A stretch of 42,685 bases of DNA from an uncultured Pelagibacteraceae bacterium. Lineage in GTDB: Bacteria > Pseudomonadota > Alphaproteobacteria > Pelagibacterales > Pelagibacteraceae. Position 1 is the stretch's first letter, and each line of letters opens with the position of its first letter. The notes under the pieces are model-generated. The model saw only the letters and a list, made by a program, of their open reading frames with translations. It was not told where the DNA came from and made no database searches. Shown here piece by piece: positions 354 to 29,537 of the stretch. Position numbers and translations under genes: made by a program. The stretch spans positions 1 through 42,685 of the forward strand of contig CACLEX010000004.1 in assembly GCA_902606065.1 (NCBI GenBank). The letters run 5' to 3'.

Positions 354-1397
354 ATGAAAAAAAAGAAAGCATTAATATTTGGAGTTACAGGCCAAGATGG
401 TGCATATTTATCAAAATTTTTATTAAATAAAAATTATATTGTTTATGGAGTTAAAAGGAGGTCATCTATTATTAACACTCAAAGAGTTGATGATATTTAT
501 AAAGATATAAATTATAAGTCAAATTTTATTTTACTTTATGGAGATTTAACTGATGCGTCTTCAATATTAAATTTGATAAAAAAAACAAATCCAAGAGAAA
601 TATATAACCTCGCAGCACAATCCCATGTAAAAGTTTCTTTTGAAGTCCCAGAGTATTCTGCTGATGTAAATGGTCTTGGAACCCTAAGAATTTTAGAAGC
701 CATAAGAAGTTTAAATTTAGAAAAAAAAGTAAAATTTTATCAAGCGGGCACCTCGGAAATGTTTGGAAGTACAAAAGAAAAATTTCAAAATGAAAAAACA
801 TCTTTCCATCCAGTAAGTCCCTATGGTGTTTCAAAATGTTTTGCTCATTGGATTACTAAAAATTATAGAGAAGCATATGGAATATATGCATGTAATGGAA
901 TCTTATTTAATCATGAAAGCCCTATTAGAGGAGAAACTTTTGTAACAAGAAAAATTATACAAGGTCTTGTAAGAATAAAACAAAACTATCAAAAAAAATT
1001 ATTTTTAGGCAATCTATATTCAAAGAGAGATTGGGGGCACGCTAGAGATTATGTAGAAGCTATGTGGAAAATGCTTCAACAAAAAAAGCCTGATGATTAT
1101 GTAATTGGTACAGGAAAAACTTTTACAATTAAAGAATTTGTAAATATAGCTACGAAAAAAATGGGATTAAACATAAAATGGATTGGTAGAGGCATTAAAG
1201 AAAAAGCTATAGATATTAAAAGTAAGAAAATTATTATTGAATGCAGAAAAAGATATTTTAGGCCTTTAGAGGTAGATTATTTGAAAGGTAATGCCACTAA
1301 AGCAAAAAAAATATTAAAATGGTCTCCAAAAACATCTATCGATAGTCTTATAGATGAAATGATTAAACATGAACTAAATAATAATGATCAATATTAA
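354..1397 (+). CDS. gmd: GDP-mannose 4,6-dehydratase
   Basis: GVTGQDGAYLSKFLL Rossmann motif, YNLAAQSHV, YGVSKCFAHW, LFNHESPIRGETFVTRKI. Confidence 0.95.
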   Translation: MKKKKALIFGVTGQDGAYLSKFLLNKNYIVYGVKRRSSIINTQRVDDIYKDINYKSNFILLYGDLTDASSILNLIKKTNPREIYNLAAQSHVKVSFEVPEYSADVNGLGTLRILEAIRSLNLEKKVKFYQAGTSEMFGSTKEKFQNEKTSFHPVSPYGVSKCFAHWITKNYREAYGIYACNGILFNHESPIRGETFVTRKIIQGLVRIKQNYQKKLFLGNLYSKRDWGHARDYVEAMWKMLQQKKPDDYVIGTGKTFTIKEFVNIATKKMGLNIKWIGRGIKEKAIDIKSKKIIIECRKRYFRPLEVDYLKGNATKAKKILKWSPKTSIDSLIDEMIKHELNNNDQY

Positions 1398-2325
1398 TAG
1401 TAAAGTATTTATTGCAGGCCATAATGGAATGCTAGGTTCATCGATATTTAGAGAGCTGAAAAAAAAAGGATATAAAAACATAATCACAATTAACAAAAAA
1501 AAACTAGATTTAAGAAACCAAAATGCAGTTAGAATGTTTTTTAAAAAAAAAAAACCAGATGCTGTAATTATTGCTGCTGCGAAAGTTGGTGGAATAAAAG
1601 CTAACATTCACTATCCAGCAAATTTTATAAATGATAATTTACAAATTCAAACAAATATAATTTCTTCAAGTCACTCTAACAATGTGAAAAAATTAATTTT
1701 ATTTGGCTCGAGTTGTATTTACCCAAAAAGTATAAAAAAACCGATTAAAGAAAGTCAAATTATGTCAGGAGTTTTAGAATCGACAAACGAGAGTTATGCT
1801 ATTGCAAAAATTGCAGGTATTAAGATGATAGAATCTTTCAATAGACAATATAATACAAACTATTTATGCCTTATGCCATGCAATTTGTTTGGCCCAAATG
1901 ATAATTATGATACAAAAAACTCACATTTTTTACCCGCTTTGATAAAGAAAATATATTCGGCAAGTAAAAAAAAAGGAAAAAATAAAGTTGTTAAATTGTG
2001 GGGAACTGGAAAACCTAAGAGAGAAGTTTTACATGTTGATGAAGTTGCAAATGCTTGTGAATTCTTCCTTAAAAAAAAAATTAAAAAAACTATAATCAAC
2101 ATTGGTTCCCCAATAGAAATGACTATAAAAAATTATGCTAGTTTGATCAGGAAAAAAATTGATCCAAAAGTTTTGATAAAATTTAATAATGACAAAAAAT
2201 TAGATGGTGTTATGAGAAAAAAATTAAATCTTTCTCTGGCCAATAGTTATGGATGGAAATCAAAAATGAATTTTATGAGAGTATTAGATGAAGTTATTGA
2301 GGACTATATAAATACTCATAGATAA
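1384..2325 (+). CDS. fcl: GDP-L-fucose synthase (NAD-dependent epimerase/dehydratase)
   Basis: AGHNGMLGSSIFREL, AAKVGGI.AN, FGSSCIYPK, YAIAKIAGIKM; overlaps the gmd 3' end by 14 nt. Confidence 0.93.
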   Translation: MININSKVFIAGHNGMLGSSIFRELKKKGYKNIITINKKKLDLRNQNAVRMFFKKKKPDAVIIAAAKVGGIKANIHYPANFINDNLQIQTNIISSSHSNNVKKLILFGSSCIYPKSIKKPIKESQIMSGVLESTNESYAIAKIAGIKMIESFNRQYNTNYLCLMPCNLFGPNDNYDTKNSHFLPALIKKIYSASKKKGKNKVVKLWGTGKPKREVLHVDEVANACEFFLKKKIKKTIINIGSPIEMTIKNYASLIRKKIDPKVLIKFNNDKKLDGVMRKKLNLSLANSYGWKSKMNFMRVLDEVIEDYINTHR

Positions 2326-2330
2326 ATAGT

Positions 2331-3971
2331 ATGATTTTTTTTCAAATACTTATATTTATTGTAAGTATCTTTCTATTGTCATTGTCTATTTCTGGATATG
2401 GAAGATTAGTAAATTTTAATTTTAAAAATAATTTTTTTTTAGATATATTTTTAGGCTTTATATTAATATCTTTAACAATAACCTTAGTTCATTTTTTTTT
2501 TAAAATAAATCTTATTATTAGTTTTGCGATTTTTATTTTGGGGCTATTCTTTTTTTTTTATAAAAAAAAAATAATCCTACAGAATTTAATTAAAAATGAA
2601 AACTTCTACAGCTTTATAATACTTATTTTATTAATACCTATTTTTTTATCTCAAAAATATCATGAAGATTTTGGATATTATCATTTACCATATGCACTTG
2701 GTTTCATTGAGGAAAAAATAATCTTTGGATTTGCAAATATTGATAAATCTTATATCTATAACTCTATTTGGTTGAATTTATATTCAATCTTTTTTTTAAG
2801 TGATAAAAATTTTAATTTTTTAACTTTACCTAGTTTTTTATTATTTGTAGCGTTCGTACTTTTTTCTTTTCAACAATTAATTTCAAAAAATGACAAATTA
2901 GCAAGTGATTATTTTCTGCTTACAACAATATTTTATTTCATTCTAAAATTTACTAGAATTTCTGAGTTTGGAGTAGATTTACCGACATCTATTTTTTCCA
3001 TTCTGAGTATTTATTTTTTCTTAAAGTTTTCTGAAGTAGATCTGATAAGTGAAAGAAAAGAATATTTTTTTTTAATTTCAATTTTTACTTTTTTTTCAAT
3101 TCTAATAAAATTAAGCACAATCCCTCTCATTTTATTACCAATTTTCCTTTACTTGAAACATTTCAAAGTTTTGAAATTTGATATTTTTAATTTTAAGTTT
3201 TTATTAATATATAGTTTATTAACAATATTTTTAATTCAACAATTTATCTATACTGGATGCTTTTTTTTTCCATCCAAACTGACATGCTTAAATGTAAGTT
3301 GGTTTAGTGAGGAAAATTTAGAATTATCAAAACAACTTAAATTAATTAATAAAAGTTATGGTGTAGCAAATGATATTTATACTCCCAGGGAATATCTTGA
3401 AAATTTTAATTGGTTAAGTTTTTGGTTTAAGAGAAACTTTGTTGAGATTTCAGAACACCTCTTAACTATAATTCTGCCATTGTTGTTATTTTTTTCGATA
3501 CAAAAACAAAAGATTAATCATAGATTTATTTTAAAAGATAAGTTAGGGCTATATATTTTTTTATTCTTTGGTTTTTTATTTTGGCTTAATTTTTCTCCAG
3601 TTTATAGGTTTGCAATACATCTATTTTTGACTCTAATTTTTGTTCTGCTGATCAATAGTTCAATATCAAAAAATTTTTCAAAAAAATTTTTTTTCATTTT
3701 TATGATAACTTTTATTCTATACAGTTTTTCAAAAAATATGATAAGATTAAATAAAGTTGATACTATATTTTTTGGTATCTTAAAAATAGATAATGCATTT
3801 ATACTTAATGAAAAAAATACTAACGAGTTAGTAAAAATTTATCAGCCCGACATTAAGAATAACTCATCAAATGGTTGGCAAGGTAGACTTTGTTGGGATA
3901 TTCCATTCATCTGTTCTTCTAACAAACTGCATATTAGAAAAAAAAATGGATATTTAATAATAAATAAATAA
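2331..3971 (+). CDS. Polytopic membrane protein, possibly GT-C-like or LIC_10190-like surface-glycan protein
   Basis: 546 aa, many hydrophobic segments, KYHEDFGYYHLPYALGF early loop; lies inside a glycan cassette. Confidence 0.55.
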   Translation: MIFFQILIFIVSIFLLSLSISGYGRLVNFNFKNNFFLDIFLGFILISLTITLVHFFFKINLIISFAIFILGLFFFFYKKKIILQNLIKNENFYSFIILILLIPIFLSQKYHEDFGYYHLPYALGFIEEKIIFGFANIDKSYIYNSIWLNLYSIFFLSDKNFNFLTLPSFLLFVAFVLFSFQQLISKNDKLASDYFLLTTIFYFILKFTRISEFGVDLPTSIFSILSIYFFLKFSEVDLISERKEYFFLISIFTFFSILIKLSTIPLILLPIFLYLKHFKVLKFDIFNFKFLLIYSLLTIFLIQQFIYTGCFFFPSKLTCLNVSWFSEENLELSKQLKLINKSYGVANDIYTPREYLENFNWLSFWFKRNFVEISEHLLTIILPLLLFFSIQKQKINHRFILKDKLGLYIFLFFGFLFWLNFSPVYRFAIHLFLTLIFVLLINSSISKNFSKKFFFIFMITFILYSFSKNMIRLNKVDTIFFGILKIDNAFILNEKNTNELVKIYQPDIKNNSSNGWQGRLCWDIPFICSSNKLHIRKKNGYLIINK

Positions 3972-20413: not shown

Positions 20414-21136
20414 ATGGCAGGACATTCTCATTGGGCAGGAATAAAACATAAAAAAGGTAAAGCCGATAAGCAAAGATCTAAAATTTTTTCAAAGTTGTCG
20501 AAAGAAATAACCGTTGCAGCAAAACTTGGGGACAAAGATCCAGCAATGAATCCAAGATTAAGATCCGCGATTCAAGCTGCAAGATCAGCAAATATGCCCA
20601 AAGAAAATATAGAAAGAGCGATTGATAAATCTTCAGTTAATACCGTGTCAAATTTTGAAAATTTAAGGTATGAGGGCTTTGGACCAGAAAAAGTAGCAGT
20701 GATAATAGAAGCATTAACAGATAATAAAAATAGAACAGCGTCCAGTATTAGAACAATTTTTCAAAAAGCAGGTGGCAGTCTAGGAACCCAGGGTTCTGCT
20801 TCTCATAATTTTAATCAATTAGGAATAATAAAGATTGATAAAAAAGAGGTTTCTGATGATCAAATTTTTGAGCTAGCTACCAATGCTGGAGCTGATGAAT
20901 GTAAATCGGAAAATGATTTTCACGAAATACAATGTCCTGTCAGTGAAATTTATAATGTTAAAAAAGAATTAGAAAAAGAAATTGCTAATTTCATCTCAAC
21001 AGAAATTGAATGGGTGCCACTCAATAGTGTAAAAATTTCTAAAGAAAAAAATGAAGATTTAATAAATTTCTTTGAATTACTTGAAGACAATGATGATGTA
21101 CAAAATGTTTATTCTAACGCTGAATTTGTAAATTAA
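20414..21136 (+). CDS. yebC: YebC/PmpR family (TACO1-like) protein
   Basis: MAGHSHWAGIKHKKGKADKQRSKIFSKLSKEITVAAKLG, RYEGFGPEKVAVIIEALTDNKNRT. Confidence 0.95.
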   Translation: MAGHSHWAGIKHKKGKADKQRSKIFSKLSKEITVAAKLGDKDPAMNPRLRSAIQAARSANMPKENIERAIDKSSVNTVSNFENLRYEGFGPEKVAVIIEALTDNKNRTASSIRTIFQKAGGSLGTQGSASHNFNQLGIIKIDKKEVSDDQIFELATNAGADECKSENDFHEIQCPVSEIYNVKKELEKEIANFISTEIEWVPLNSVKISKEKNEDLINFFELLEDNDDVQNVYSNAEFVN

Positions 21137-21139
21137 ATT

Positions 21140-21634
21140 ATGTTAATAATAGGTATAGATCCTGGAATTTCTGGTTCAATTTGTTTTTTAGATAATGGAA
21201 AAATCCTAGACGTTATTGAAATGCCCATAATGACAGACGGAAAAAAAAATAAAAAACAAGTAAATGGTTCGCAAGTTTATAATGAAATTACCAAAAGAAT
21301 TAAACAATTTGAAAAAAATGAAATTAGAGTTGTGATTGAACACGTTTCTGCAATGCCTGGTCAAGGCGTTACCAGTATGTTTAATTTTGGACAATCGTTT
21401 GGAATTTTAAAGGGTATTTGCACTGCGATGCAATTACCGATGTACTTTGTAAGGCCCGCAAAATGGAAAAAATATTTTAATCTTTTAAATTCTGAAAAAG
21501 ATGCCAGCAGGACAAGAGCAATAGAAATATTTCCTTATTTTTCATCTCAATTATCAAGAAAGAAAGACTCAAATAAAGCCGATGCGATTTTGATAGCAAG
21601 TTTTTATAATGAAACTTACAAAATTGAAGAATAG
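21140..21634 (+). CDS. RuvC-fold Holliday junction resolvase, MOC1-like subtype
   Basis: IIGIDPGISGSICFL, VVIEHVSAMPGQG, FNFGQSFGILKGI, VRPAKWKKYFNL, KDASRTRAIEIFP, LSRKKDSNKADAILIAS: RuvC-fold acidic residues with a C-terminus resembling MOC1/phage-type resolvases. Confidence 0.78.
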   Translation: MLIIGIDPGISGSICFLDNGKILDVIEMPIMTDGKKNKKQVNGSQVYNEITKRIKQFEKNEIRVVIEHVSAMPGQGVTSMFNFGQSFGILKGICTAMQLPMYFVRPAKWKKYFNLLNSEKDASRTRAIEIFPYFSSQLSRKKDSNKADAILIASFYNETYKIEE

Positions 21635-21685: not shown

Positions 21686-22360
21686 ATGGAAGCTGATATC
21701 ACGTCTCAAGCAGTTGGGTTAGCCTCAAGCGCTGATTTTTCTTTAATAAATTTATTTATTAGAGCTGACATAGTAGTTAAGTCAGTGATCATCATGTTAA
21801 TAGCTTGTTCTATATATTCATGGGCAGTAATAATTGAAAAATATAGATTGTTCAAAAAAATAAATCAATCTACTGAAGAATTTGAAACAAAATTTTGGAA
21901 TTCTAAATCTGCAGAAACTTTTTATAATAATTTACCAACAAACGTTCAAGATCCAATGGCTTTGATATTTAAAGATGCGATGCAAAATTTATTAAAGAGA
22001 AGATCCAGGACAGATCTAAACAATAGAATGACCACAATGTTAGAAACGGGTATTGAAAAACAAATATCAAAAATCACCAAAGGTTTTACTTTTTTAGCAA
22101 CAGTAGGATCAACAGCTCCATTCATAGGTCTATTTGGAACAGTTTGGGGAATTATGAACTCTTTTCAATCTATCGCAATTTCAAGGAATACGAGTTTGGC
22201 AATTGTTGCACCCGGGATAGCCGAAGCTTTATTTGCAACTGCATTAGGTTTACTAGCAGCAATACCCGCAGTTGTTGCATATAATAAATTTAATAATGAC
22301 TCAATTAAGTATTCCCAAAAATTAGAAAATTTCTCAAAAAGATTTTTAACGATTATCTAA
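21686..22360 (+). CDS. tolQ: TolQ, Tol-Pal motor subunit (MotA/TolQ/ExbB)
   Basis: ATVGSTAPFIGLFGTVWGIMNSFQSIA, PGIAEALFATALGLLAAIPAVVAYN. Confidence 0.95.
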   Translation: MEADITSQAVGLASSADFSLINLFIRADIVVKSVIIMLIACSIYSWAVIIEKYRLFKKINQSTEEFETKFWNSKSAETFYNNLPTNVQDPMALIFKDAMQNLLKRRSRTDLNNRMTTMLETGIEKQISKITKGFTFLATVGSTAPFIGLFGTVWGIMNSFQSIAISRNTSLAIVAPGIAEALFATALGLLAAIPAVVAYNKFNNDSIKYSQKLENFSKRFLTII

Positions 22361-25589: not shown

Positions 25590-26585
25590 ATGCGATACAT
25601 TTTAAGAAAATTAAAAATTATTACACTTTGTCTAAGTAATTTTTTTTTAATAACTTATTCTTACGCTGACAATCATAATATTTATGAAATATTAGATCAA
25701 CTTCAGAAAGATATAAAGACTCTAGAAAAAGCAGTCTACTCAGGATCAATAGAATTAAATAGTGATAGCTCTGTGAGTTTAAATTCAAATTTAGATAATA
25801 ATTCAGAAGATGTTCTTACAAGACATTTATTAAAACTTTCAGAAATTGAAAATCAATTTCAGGAACTTACAAATAAGTTTGAGGAAATAAATTTTAAGTT
25901 AGACAAACTATCCAGCAGGATGTCAAAAGTGCAAGCAGATAATCAAATAAGATTTCAGGACTTAGAAAATGTTGTGTCTTCTGATGTAACTACAAATAAA
26001 TTAACAAAAAAAACGAATGATGAGCAAATAGAAGTTTTACCTGGAAGTTCTCAACCTCAAGATTTGGGATCGATATCATATAAAGATACAGCGACAAATG
26101 AAACATCACAAAAAACAAATTCTGTAGACTCAACAGCTTTAGTAGTAACTGAAACTTTTCAAGCTGAAGAAAAAATTCTTCCAAATGAGTCTCCAGATAA
26201 ACAATATCAGTTTGCTACAAGCTTTTTAAAAGTTGGAGATTATTCAACTGCTGAAAGAGCATTCAGAGAGTTCGTCGACACAAATCCTGAACATAATCTA
26301 GCTGGGAATGCTCAATATTGGTATGCGGAAACTTTTAGGATACGACAATTGTATACGGATGCAGCCTCAGCATATTTAGAAGGTTATCAGAGATACCCCA
26401 AAGGTGAAAAAGCACCTATAAACTTATTAAAGCTTGGTGTATCAATGGTACAAATTGGAGAAAAAGATCAAGGTTGCAAAATGATCAATGGTGTTGAAGA
26501 ACAATATCCAGAGGCAAACCAATCTGTGATACAAAAAGCTAAATATGAGTCTCAGAAATTCGAATGCAACAACCAAAATTCCTAA
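25590..26585 (+). CDS. cpoB: CpoB/YbgF Tol-Pal accessory TPR protein
   Basis: Signal-like N-terminus, coiled coil, C-terminal YQFATSFLKVGDYSTAERAFREFVDTNPEHNLAGNAQYWYAETFRIRQLYTDAASAYLEGYQRYP. Confidence 0.88.
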   Translation: MRYILRKLKIITLCLSNFFLITYSYADNHNIYEILDQLQKDIKTLEKAVYSGSIELNSDSSVSLNSNLDNNSEDVLTRHLLKLSEIENQFQELTNKFEEINFKLDKLSSRMSKVQADNQIRFQDLENVVSSDVTTNKLTKKTNDEQIEVLPGSSQPQDLGSISYKDTATNETSQKTNSVDSTALVVTETFQAEEKILPNESPDKQYQFATSFLKVGDYSTAERAFREFVDTNPEHNLAGNAQYWYAETFRIRQLYTDAASAYLEGYQRYPKGEKAPINLLKLGVSMVQIGEKDQGCKMINGVEEQYPEANQSVIQKAKYESQKFECNNQNS

Positions 26586-27573
26586 ACTTTTAAGAGATAA
26601 CTTAAATAATAAAAGAATAAATAAGATTTATAAAAAATTTGAGATCTCTTTAAATTTAGATGAAAGTTTTGCAGTTGCAGTCTCAGGTGGTCCAGATAGT
26701 CTTGCATTGGCTTTTTTATCTAAAATTTATGCAATTAAAAAAAATTTAAAATCAAAGTTTTATATTATCGACCATAAACTCAGACCTGAGTCTACAAAAG
26801 AGGCTAATTTCGTTTTAAATTTGCTTAAAAGAAACTTTATAAAATCAGAAGTATTAACCTGGAAAGGAAAGAAACCAAATAAAAGCATCCAGTCAATTGC
26901 TAGGACAAAGAGATATGAAATACTTTTCAAGAAATGTAATCAATTAAAAATCAAAAATATTTTAATGGGGCATCACGAGGATGATTTAATTGAAAATTTT
27001 TTTATAAGACTTTTGAGGGGTAGTGGAATAAAAGGTCTCACATCTCTAGATATAAAGACAACAATAAAAAAAAAAAACATATTAAGACCTTTAATTGATA
27101 TAAAAAAAGAGGATTTAATTTTTATTTCAAAAAAAGTTTTTAATTTTTATGTAGAAGATCCAACAAACCATGATGAAAAATATCAAAGAGTTCGAGTAAG
27201 AAAATTAATGGAAAATCTTAAAAGAGATGGTTTAGATAAAAATAAATTAAAAAAAACGATTAAAAATTTAAAATATGCAAACAAAGTAATTGAGTTTTAT
27301 GTTGATAAAAATTTCAGAGAAAATACCTCTTTTTTAAATAATAAAAAAAGATTAGTTATCAATAGTGATTTTTTTCTCCAACCCCAAGAGGTTACTTTTA
27401 GAGCCTTTTCAGAATCATTAAAGTTAATTGGTGAAAAATATTATTCTGTAAGAGGAAAAAAATTAGAAAAAATTATCCGGGAAATTGAAAATAATCGATT
27501 GAATAGAGCTACATTAAGTGGTTGTATTATTGAAAAGGTCAATCAATCAATAATTATCTCTAAAGAGCCCTAA
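26545..27573 (+). CDS. tilS: tRNA(Ile)-lysidine synthase
   Basis: FAVAVSGGPDSLALAFL (PP-loop SGGPDS), GHHEDDLIENFFIRLLRGSGIKGL, RPLIDIKKEDL. Confidence 0.92.
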   Translation: MSLRNSNATTKIPKLLRDNLNNKRINKIYKKFEISLNLDESFAVAVSGGPDSLALAFLSKIYAIKKNLKSKFYIIDHKLRPESTKEANFVLNLLKRNFIKSEVLTWKGKKPNKSIQSIARTKRYEILFKKCNQLKIKNILMGHHEDDLIENFFIRLLRGSGIKGLTSLDIKTTIKKKNILRPLIDIKKEDLIFISKKVFNFYVEDPTNHDEKYQRVRVRKLMENLKRDGLDKNKLKKTIKNLKYANKVIEFYVDKNFRENTSFLNNKKRLVINSDFFLQPQEVTFRAFSESLKLIGEKYYSVRGKKLEKIIREIENNRLNRATLSGCIIEKVNQSIIISKEP

Positions 27574-27635
27574 AATAATGCCACTTTACACAAAATGCCA
27601 CTTGTTAAATTGATAATAATTCTTATTTTAAGCCT

Positions 27636-29537
27636 ATGAATATGAAAAATATTGCAATGTGGGCTATCATAGTTTTTTTAACTATTGGTCTTTATAATAT
27701 GTTTAAAAATCCCCAAACAAATATTAGAGGTGGGGACAAAGTTATATTCTCGGAATTCTTGACATCTGTTGAAAACGGAGAGGTATTAAAAGTAGAAATC
27801 CAAGGTAACAATATTAAAGGTGTGTATTCAAATGGAAAATCATTTACAACTTATTCTCCTAACGATCCAAATTTAATCGAAAAACTTTCTGAAAAAGGAG
27901 TGAGTATTTCAGCTGCACCTATTGAAGAAAAAATGCCATCTTTATTTGGTGTCCTGCTTTCTTGGTTTCCTATGTTATTATTAATTGCTGTTTGGATTTT
28001 TTTCATGAGACAAATGCAAGGTGGTAAAGGTGGAGCTATGGGCTTTGGAAGATCAAAAGCAAAAATGATGAATGAACTGAAGGGTAAAGTTACATTTAAT
28101 GACGTTGCAGGTGTAGAGGAAGCAAAGGAAGAAGTTGAAGAAATTGTAGAATTTTTAAAAGATCCAAGAAAATTTAGTAGACTTGGAGGAAAAATACCTA
28201 GAGGTGCTTTATTGGTTGGTCCACCAGGCACTGGAAAAACTTTATTAGCTAGAGCGATAGCAGGTGAAGCTGGAGTTCCTTTTTTTACGATCTCAGGTTC
28301 TGATTTCGTTGAAATGTTTGTAGGAGTTGGTGCTTCTAGAGTGAGAGATATGTTTGAACAAGGAAAAAAAAATTCTCCTTGTATAATTTTCATAGATGAA
28401 ATTGATGCTGTTGGAAGAAGTAGGGGTGCTGGTTTAGGTGGTGGAAATGATGAACGAGAACAAACTCTTAACCAGCTTTTAGTTGAGATGGATGGTTTTG
28501 ATACTAATGAAGGAGTTATAATCATTGCTGCAACAAACAGACCAGATGTATTAGATCCCGCTTTATTAAGACCAGGTAGGTTTGATAGACAAGTAGTTGT
28601 ATCCAATCCTGACATAATTGGACGAGAAAAAATTTTAAAGGTTCATGTAAAAAAAATAAAAATGGCACCAGATGTTAATTTAAGAACTATTGCGAGAGGT
28701 ACACCTGGTTTTTCTGGTGCAGATCTAGCTAATTTAGTAAATGAGTCTGCTTTATTGGCGGCTAGAAAAAATAAGAGAATTGTTACACTAAACGAGTTTG
28801 AGGAGGCAAAAGATAAAGTAATGATGGGAGCTGAGAGACGTTCAATGGTGATGACAGAGGATGAGAAAAAATTAACAGCTTATCATGAAGGGGGTCATGC
28901 GTTAGTATCCTTCAATATGCCAAGTTATGATCCCATACATAAAGCAACTATAATTCCTCGGGGCAGAGCATTAGGTATGGTAATGAATTTGCCGGAAAGA
29001 GATAAACATGGTCATTCTATAAAATATTTAAAAGCAAGACTGGCAGTTTGTTTTGGCGGAAGAGTTGCTGAAGAAGTAATTTTTGGAAAAGATAATATAT
29101 CAACAGGAGCAGGTGGAGGTAGTGGATCAGATATTAATCAAGCTACACAACTTGCCAGAGCTATGGTGACTAAGTATGGAATGAGTGAAGAAATGGGACC
29201 TGTTGAATATGGCGAAAATCAAGAAGAGGTTTTTTTAGGAAGATCAGTAACACAAACTCAGTCAGTCTCTGAGGAAGTAGCACAAAAAATAGACAAAGAA
29301 ATTAGAAAGCTAATTGATGAGGGTTATAATACTGCAAAGAAAATTCTGACTGAAAAAGTTGAAGATTTACACAAAATTGCTAAAGCTCTTATGACTTATG
29401 AGACATTAACTGGTGAAGAAATTGAAAATATAATCAATAAAAATATATACCCAGCAGACAAACAAGACTTAAAAGTAGAAGATGATAAAGGGTCAGCAAT
29501 GGGTGCTCTAGGCCTAAAACCAAAAATTGTTCATTAG
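27636..29537 (+). CDS. ftsH: ATP-dependent zinc metalloprotease FtsH
   Basis: [42 protein letters not shown]-like [17 protein letters not shown] (HExxH). Confidence 0.97.

Follow-up and report, generated by a model that had tools for sequence, protein, structure and literature searches.

The yebC–tolQ slot and its predicted resolvase

The window, by which we mean the whole 42,685-nucleotide stretch of contig CACLEX010000004.1 that was analysed, carries an open reading frame with an ATG start located 3 nt downstream of yebC and 51 nt upstream of tolQ (Table 1). The gene order around it comprises a divergent tktA, two small coiled-coil/zapA-like genes, a 5-formyl-THF cyclo-ligase-like gene, ymdB, yebC, the predicted resolvase, tolQRAB, pal and ybgF, with the neighbours named by recognition and conserved order. 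No ruvA, ruvB or ybgC lies between yebC and tolQ in the window. Orthologues of the resolvase are encoded by 61 of the 63 genomes of at least 90% completeness in the window's own family, the Pelagibacteraceae (SAR11; f1). The two remaining genomes (G040 and G114) also lack tolQ, which indicates that the locus is missing from these assemblies, and a true absence of the gene was rejected for this reason; a weak profile match in G114 turned out to be YqgF. The gene is under purifying selection, with dN/dS values of approximately 0.04–0.1.

Table 1. Location of the slot gene, its key residues and flanks in the window, and of slot nucleases in related lineages (L numbers denote other loci; residue numbers are those of the window protein)
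Feature	Position	Strand	Remarks
yebC	20414..21136	+	Upstream flank of the slot; homologues beside the slot in every lineage examined
Predicted Holliday junction resolvase, MOC1-like (PHROG_1770), RNase H fold	21140..21634	+	164 aa; ruvC slot
D7, first catalytic Asp, GIDPG motif	21158..21160	+	NtMOC1 D116; invariant in 35 orthologues
G9, at the site of the second catalytic Asp of MOC1 (NtMOC1 D118)	21164..21166	+	Asp missing; G9 in all 35 orthologues
E67, catalytic Glu	21338..21340	+	NtMOC1 E175
A71–G76 (AMPGQG), counterpart of the MOC1 base-recognition loop	21350..21367	+	Invariant in SAR11 and 25 aligned viral relatives
K120, counterpart of the catalytic-site lysine of MOC1	21497..21499	+	ZmMOC1 K229 / NtMOC1 K230
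D143 and D148, acidic C-terminal motif KKDxNKADA	21566..21583	+	NtMOC1 D253 and E258
tolQ	21686..22360	+	Downstream flank of the slot; followed by tolR, tolA, tolB, pal
f2 slot resolvase (predicted)	L050:7169-7549	-
f2 slot resolvase (predicted)	L051:6353-6736	+
f2 slot resolvase (predicted)	L052:7059-7430	-
Small phage-type nuclease directly after yebC in RuvC-less families	L256, L257, L260		yebC–tolQ slot
f40 nuclease	L258:4437-4943	-	Directly after yebC
f40 nuclease	L259:1745-2251	+	Directly after yebC

An earlier, sequence-only reading of this DNA had described a 164-aa protein of RuvC fold between yebC and tolQ, had judged it not to be canonical RuvC, and had proposed a resemblance to MOC1 and phage-type proteins. 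The open reading frame and its position, including the 51 nt to tolQ, are as described there, and the other two points are now supported by sequence, fold and phylogeny. The Pfam RuvC model (PF02075) scores the protein at 14.3 bits, below its cut-off of 22.2, and the PHROG_1770 profile ‘Holliday junction resolvase’ matches it over its full length (residues 1–161, 2e-36). The best sequence matches among solved structures are tobacco and maize MOC1 (3e-14 for NtMOC1, the others weaker), with RuvC at 0.5. An AlphaFold2 model based on an alignment with 25 viral relatives (mean pLDDT 94.2, pTM 0.89) was compared with the PDB using Foldseek, and the top 12 matches were all MOC1 chains (TMq 0.77–0.87, TMt 0.77–0.88), most of them with a TM of 0.84–0.88 at 1.7–2.4 Å, while RuvC reached 0.56–0.73. 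In a tree of 60 proteins, canonical alphaproteobacterial RuvC is split from the window protein at 100/100. All copies from SAR11 are monophyletic (100/98); they sit amid phage sequences, close to plant MOC1, within a 98/95 clade of phage and plant sequences. By position, fold and family, the window protein is a member of the phage-type, MOC1-like resolvases and not a canonical RuvC; its enzymatic function is inferred, as no biochemistry is available.

Residues were mapped by alignment with NtMOC1, and conservation was assessed over 35 SAR11 orthologues, in which D7, E67, K120, D143 and D148 are all invariant. The catalytic tetrad of MOC1 (D116, D118, E175 and E258) is incomplete, with D7, E67 and D148 present and G9 at the position of D118. 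RuvC also has no analogue of this second Asp (PMC11183143), so the window protein displays a RuvC-like set of acidic residues in a MOC1-like fold. The base-recognition loop of MOC1, with its aromatic residue and D183, the reader of cytosine (PMC7078210), is not matched either, M72 replacing Y180 and Q75 replacing D183 (NtMOC1 numbering). Since both the second catalytic Asp and the base-reading Asp are absent, specificity and rate may differ, and we infer that the sequence preference is not that of MOC1, which cuts between two cytosines. With G9 and Q75 in place of these two residues, the protein is not a MOC1 in the strict sense, so the proposed resemblance holds for phage-type, MOC1-like proteins but not for MOC1 proper.

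RuvABC, RecG and the occupants of the slot in related lineages

For Holliday junction resolution in bacteria, RuvABC is the textbook system. As the genome to which the window belongs is 66.7% complete, the absence of ruvABC was judged on its relatives, and an artefact of incomplete assembly was rejected on the basis of single-contig relatives that are 99–100% complete. Neither the RuvC nor the RuvA profile detected a homologue in any of 118 genomes of the order, with E. coli, Caulobacter and other controls positive for both. With a composite RuvA+RuvB+RecG query applied to 22 genomes, RuvA and RuvB were found only in the three RuvC-positive controls, and full-length RecG was found in all 22. 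The RuvB_N profile gave weak matches in all genomes (up to about 34 bits, a single stretch, in frames of 233–605 aa); these were not individually identified and were rejected as RuvB, given that the composite query yielded no RuvB-specific match in these genomes and 444–744 bits in the controls. YqgF, another protein of RNase H fold, occurs in at least three f1 genera, and second weak PHROG_1770 matches in some genera of this family could be assigned to YqgF by motif.

These results bear on the proposal of the sequence-only reading that the branch-migration motor had been lost and that ruvA, ruvB and ybgC were missing. The loss of RuvAB stands, as neither these genes nor ruvC were found elsewhere in complete relatives, but the RecG motor is kept in all genomes tested. 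The loss of ybgC does not belong to the same event: three other f1 genera retain ybgC between the resolvase gene and tolQ (L055, L057, L269), and its loss was thus later and separate from the replacement of RuvABC. The ancestral-type order invoked for comparison, yebC-ruvC-ruvA-ruvB-ybgC-tolQ, is indeed seen in relatives that bear RuvABC (L366, L368, L370 and L372, where it continues through tolRAB to pal), and one further locus (L374) has yebC-ruvC-ruvB-tolQ inside a gene neighbourhood like that of the window.

In the sister family f2, the slot between yebC and tolQ is occupied by an unrelated phage-type resolvase of the PD-(D/E)XK type with 123–127 aa (PDDEXK_15, 4e-8 to 2.5e-7; PHROG_244, 8e-20 to 3e-21). 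It was found in 45 f2 genomes, among them all 12 with a completeness of at least 90%; no f1 genome gave a match. A protein of 97–108 aa matching PHROG_2002 (8.5e-8 and 2.5e-10) fills the slot in f27 and f123, two related marine families, and 78 of the 80 named genomes of the f27/f123 type show the arrangement yebC-X-tolQ. The assignment of this protein as a resolvase is weak, resting on the PHROG_2002 match and on a weak Hjc-like fold match of a model with a pLDDT of 73. In a fourth case, f40, which belongs to another order, a 168-aa PDDEXK_15 protein (2e-21) lies directly after yebC and is present in 13 of the 18 genomes of that order; the tolQRAB-pal-ybgF block is not downstream of the slot there (L258, L259), and homologues of the genes at window positions 26545–29537 are found instead. 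The short PDDEXK_15 proteins of f2 and the long ones of f40 fall into separate phage clades (100/100). RuvABC is missing and RecG retained in all five families, and the different slot proteins are mutually exclusive.

Two single cases in this survey are recorded here. In AG-457-I08 (L338:2118-3023(+)), the slot resolvase is in frame with a PyrE-like sequence, giving an open reading frame of 301 aa versus 97 aa. A metagenome-assembled genome labelled as Gammaproteobacteria TMED225 (L332, NHJW02000023.1) carries the alphaproteobacterial slot with a 98% identical resolvase and is probably mislabelled or contaminated.

RuvC itself was detected in 226 of the 241 genomes of the class. Four RuvC-less genomes (G190, G232, G282 and G292; loci L261, L262, L263 and L265) have no evident small nuclease beside yebC, which means that replacement is not universal among genomes without RuvC. 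Two other members of the class that match the resolvase profile (G278 and G323) were rejected as replacements, because canonical RuvC is also present and the copies are located outside the slot, that of G278 near a recombinase gene. In a tree of flanking genes, f1 and f2 are joined, as are f27 and f123, while f40 is placed elsewhere among RuvC-bearing alphaproteobacteria. AT-rich lineages are prone to artefactual grouping, and we therefore give only a lower bound of two for the number of independent RuvABC losses; f27 and f123 may share one acquisition.

Proposed replacement in place by phage resolvases

Five families without RuvABC but with RecG, together with RuvABC-keeping relatives that carry ruvCAB in the very same slot, point to a repeated replacement in place by single-gene phage resolvases. 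We propose, with a probability of roughly 0.8, that the window protein is a phage-derived, single-gene resolvase of RNase H fold that supplanted ruvC-ruvA-ruvB at their own locus in the f1 ancestor, and that this was repeated with unrelated nucleases elsewhere. The corresponding same-locus replacements would be the short PDDEXK_15 type in f2, the PHROG_2002 type in f27 and f123, and the long PDDEXK_15 type in f40. With approximately 1,300 genes to choose from, it is very unlikely that several lineages reused the same slot by chance.

In the proposed scenario, (i) a phage gene that arrived within or beside the ruv operon would have obtained suitable expression and could have rendered ruvCAB dispensable in one step, which is an inference; (ii) the resolvase would act as a dimer, with D7, E67 and D143/D148 coordinating catalysis with Mg2+ or Mn2+, and introduce paired nicks across four-way junctions, which would derive from recombination and fork reversal; (iii) in the absence of loading by RuvAB, it would have to bind open or spontaneously migrating junctions; and (iv) RecG, the only dedicated junction branch-migration helicase found, would be the sole enzyme of this kind available. 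Single-gene phage resolvases are complete in themselves. With the RuvC of phage bIL67, an E. coli strain deleted for ruvABC regains its UV resistance (PMC3864405). RuvAB is hence not a requirement for every phage resolvase, although for the window protein both activity and RuvAB-independence are inferred.

The near-universal conservation of the gene under strong purifying selection, the exact replacement of ruvCAB and the finding that the different predicted resolvases of the slot are mutually exclusive make it unlikely that these phage-type genes serve another role, such as flap or fork processing or interference with infecting phages, while YqgF would resolve junctions or RecG and a topoisomerase would dissolve them. 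YqgF could share the work in the genera that encode it, but it is not known to stand in for RuvC in most bacteria. Some room for such a role is left by the retention of RecG everywhere tested and by the description of phage resolvases as more promiscuous than cellular ones (PMC3864405).

The phage relatedness of the slot proteins is observed, while the direction and order of events are inferred. Relatives of the window type occur on more than 500 IMG/VR viral contigs, the best 80 at 38–47% identity. The f2 protein is up to 57% identical to proteins of viral contigs and 48% identical to the resolvase annotated in Roseobacter phage CRP-810, whose temperate phage family counts a prophage of a SAR11 genome among its members (PMC11288001). 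For f40, the viral-contig search returned no relatives, although the phage collection gave matches, with 45% identity to a jumbo-phage resolvase. The f123 protein shares 71–83% identity with marine viral proteins, and one viral contig (L386, about 37 kb) encodes an f123-type resolvase between small-terminase-like and large-terminase-like genes (1354-3700(+)). Such close similarity would also be expected had the resolvases evolved in these bacteria and then been captured by phages, as identity alone does not give the direction; however, diversity among the phage families far exceeds that among the bacterial ones, copies from bacteria (including those of f123) are nested inside viral clades, and viral copies reside in replication or packaging modules beside terminase or primase genes, so that we give this direction very little weight. 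Vertical descent from alphaproteobacterial RuvC, with MOC1-like features arising convergently through rapid evolution in a reduced genome, is largely refuted, since it agrees with the retained chromosomal slot, the GIDPG motif with a RuvC-like lack of the second Asp, and the weak sub-threshold matches to RuvC models, but not with the 100/100 split from alphaproteobacterial RuvC and the placement inside phage sequences, nor with a fold far closer to MOC1, and it cannot explain the non-homologous protein in the slot of f2. Whereas the sequence-only reading had the resolvase ‘kept or swapped in’, the nesting of the protein in phage sequences and the different slot resolvase of f2 lead us to favour the latter.

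In a wider sense, we consider it probable that the ruv locus is a hotspot of replacement in streamlined marine alphaproteobacteria. On this view, RuvABC was lost on two or more occasions, no fewer than four distinct phage-type resolvase clades with either of two unrelated folds, RNase H or PD-(D/E)XK, became fixed at the identical position after yebC, and the high homologous recombination of these cells is sustained by a phage resolvase plus RecG, without RuvAB. SAR11 bacteria are among the most abundant organisms on Earth. They are reported to recombine at very high rates in an article whose section on missing functions lists RecBCD, RecF and MutSL and does not mention Ruv (PMC12374537). Our literature searches found no paper describing such a replacement of RuvABC; the loss of ruvABC may have been noted in subscription articles about genome reduction in SAR11. 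If the proposal is true, recombination in these bacteria relies solely on a phage resolvase and RecG, and they provide clear natural cases in which phage enzymes repeatedly assumed, at the original locus, a housekeeping function in information processing. The need for RuvAB in junction resolution within cells, and the effect of its loss on recombination tract length and promiscuity, would become directly testable, and the recurrence at a single slot raises the new question of why it happens there.

Relation to known resolvases

The window protein resembles MOC1 (ZmMOC1 and NtMOC1; PDB 6jrf, 6kvo) in fold, length, the C-terminal KKDxxxA(D/E)A motif and the positions of D116, E175, K230 and D253, as well as in having no known RuvAB partner. 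It differs in having G9 for D118, D148 for E258, and M72 and Q75 for Y180 and D183, and in being a bacterial protein whose gene forms an operon-like block with yebC and tolQ. As a side observation, plant MOC1 groups with the resolvase of the cyanobacterial phage PaV-LD (L036) in the 60-protein tree, which hints at a phage origin of chloroplast MOC1. The PHROG_1770 resolvases of Salmonella phage epsilon15, Planktothrix phage PaV-LD and Stenotrophomonas phage Bhz63 have the GIDPG, AMPGQGV, KKD and ADA motifs in common with the window protein, and the SAR11 copies are nested among them. In contrast to these phage counterparts, which are replication or packaging genes, the window gene is a fixed chromosomal gene of housekeeping style at the ruv locus, with approximately 35–48% identity to them.

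Canonical RuvC (PF02075) shares with the window protein the RNase H fold, an Asp/Glu active site and the chromosomal slot, as the window matches the order yebC-ruvC-ruvA-ruvB-tolQ with ruvA and ruvB gone. Unlike RuvC, the window protein remains below the Pfam cut-off, falls outside the RuvC clade (100/100) and has no RuvA or RuvB partners that could be found in the relatives searched. The bIL67 RuvC is likewise a phage resolvase and functions without RuvAB, as seen in an E. coli ruvABC deletion (PMC3864405), but it belongs to another, RuvC-like subfamily (TM 0.60–0.68) and is not fixed at a bacterial ruv locus. Finally, the PDDEXK_15 (PF24608)/PHROG_244 and PHROG_2002 proteins share the yebC-adjacent slot in f2, f40 and f27/f123, yet they are of the PD-(D/E)XK type rather than of RNase H fold and are not homologous to the window protein.
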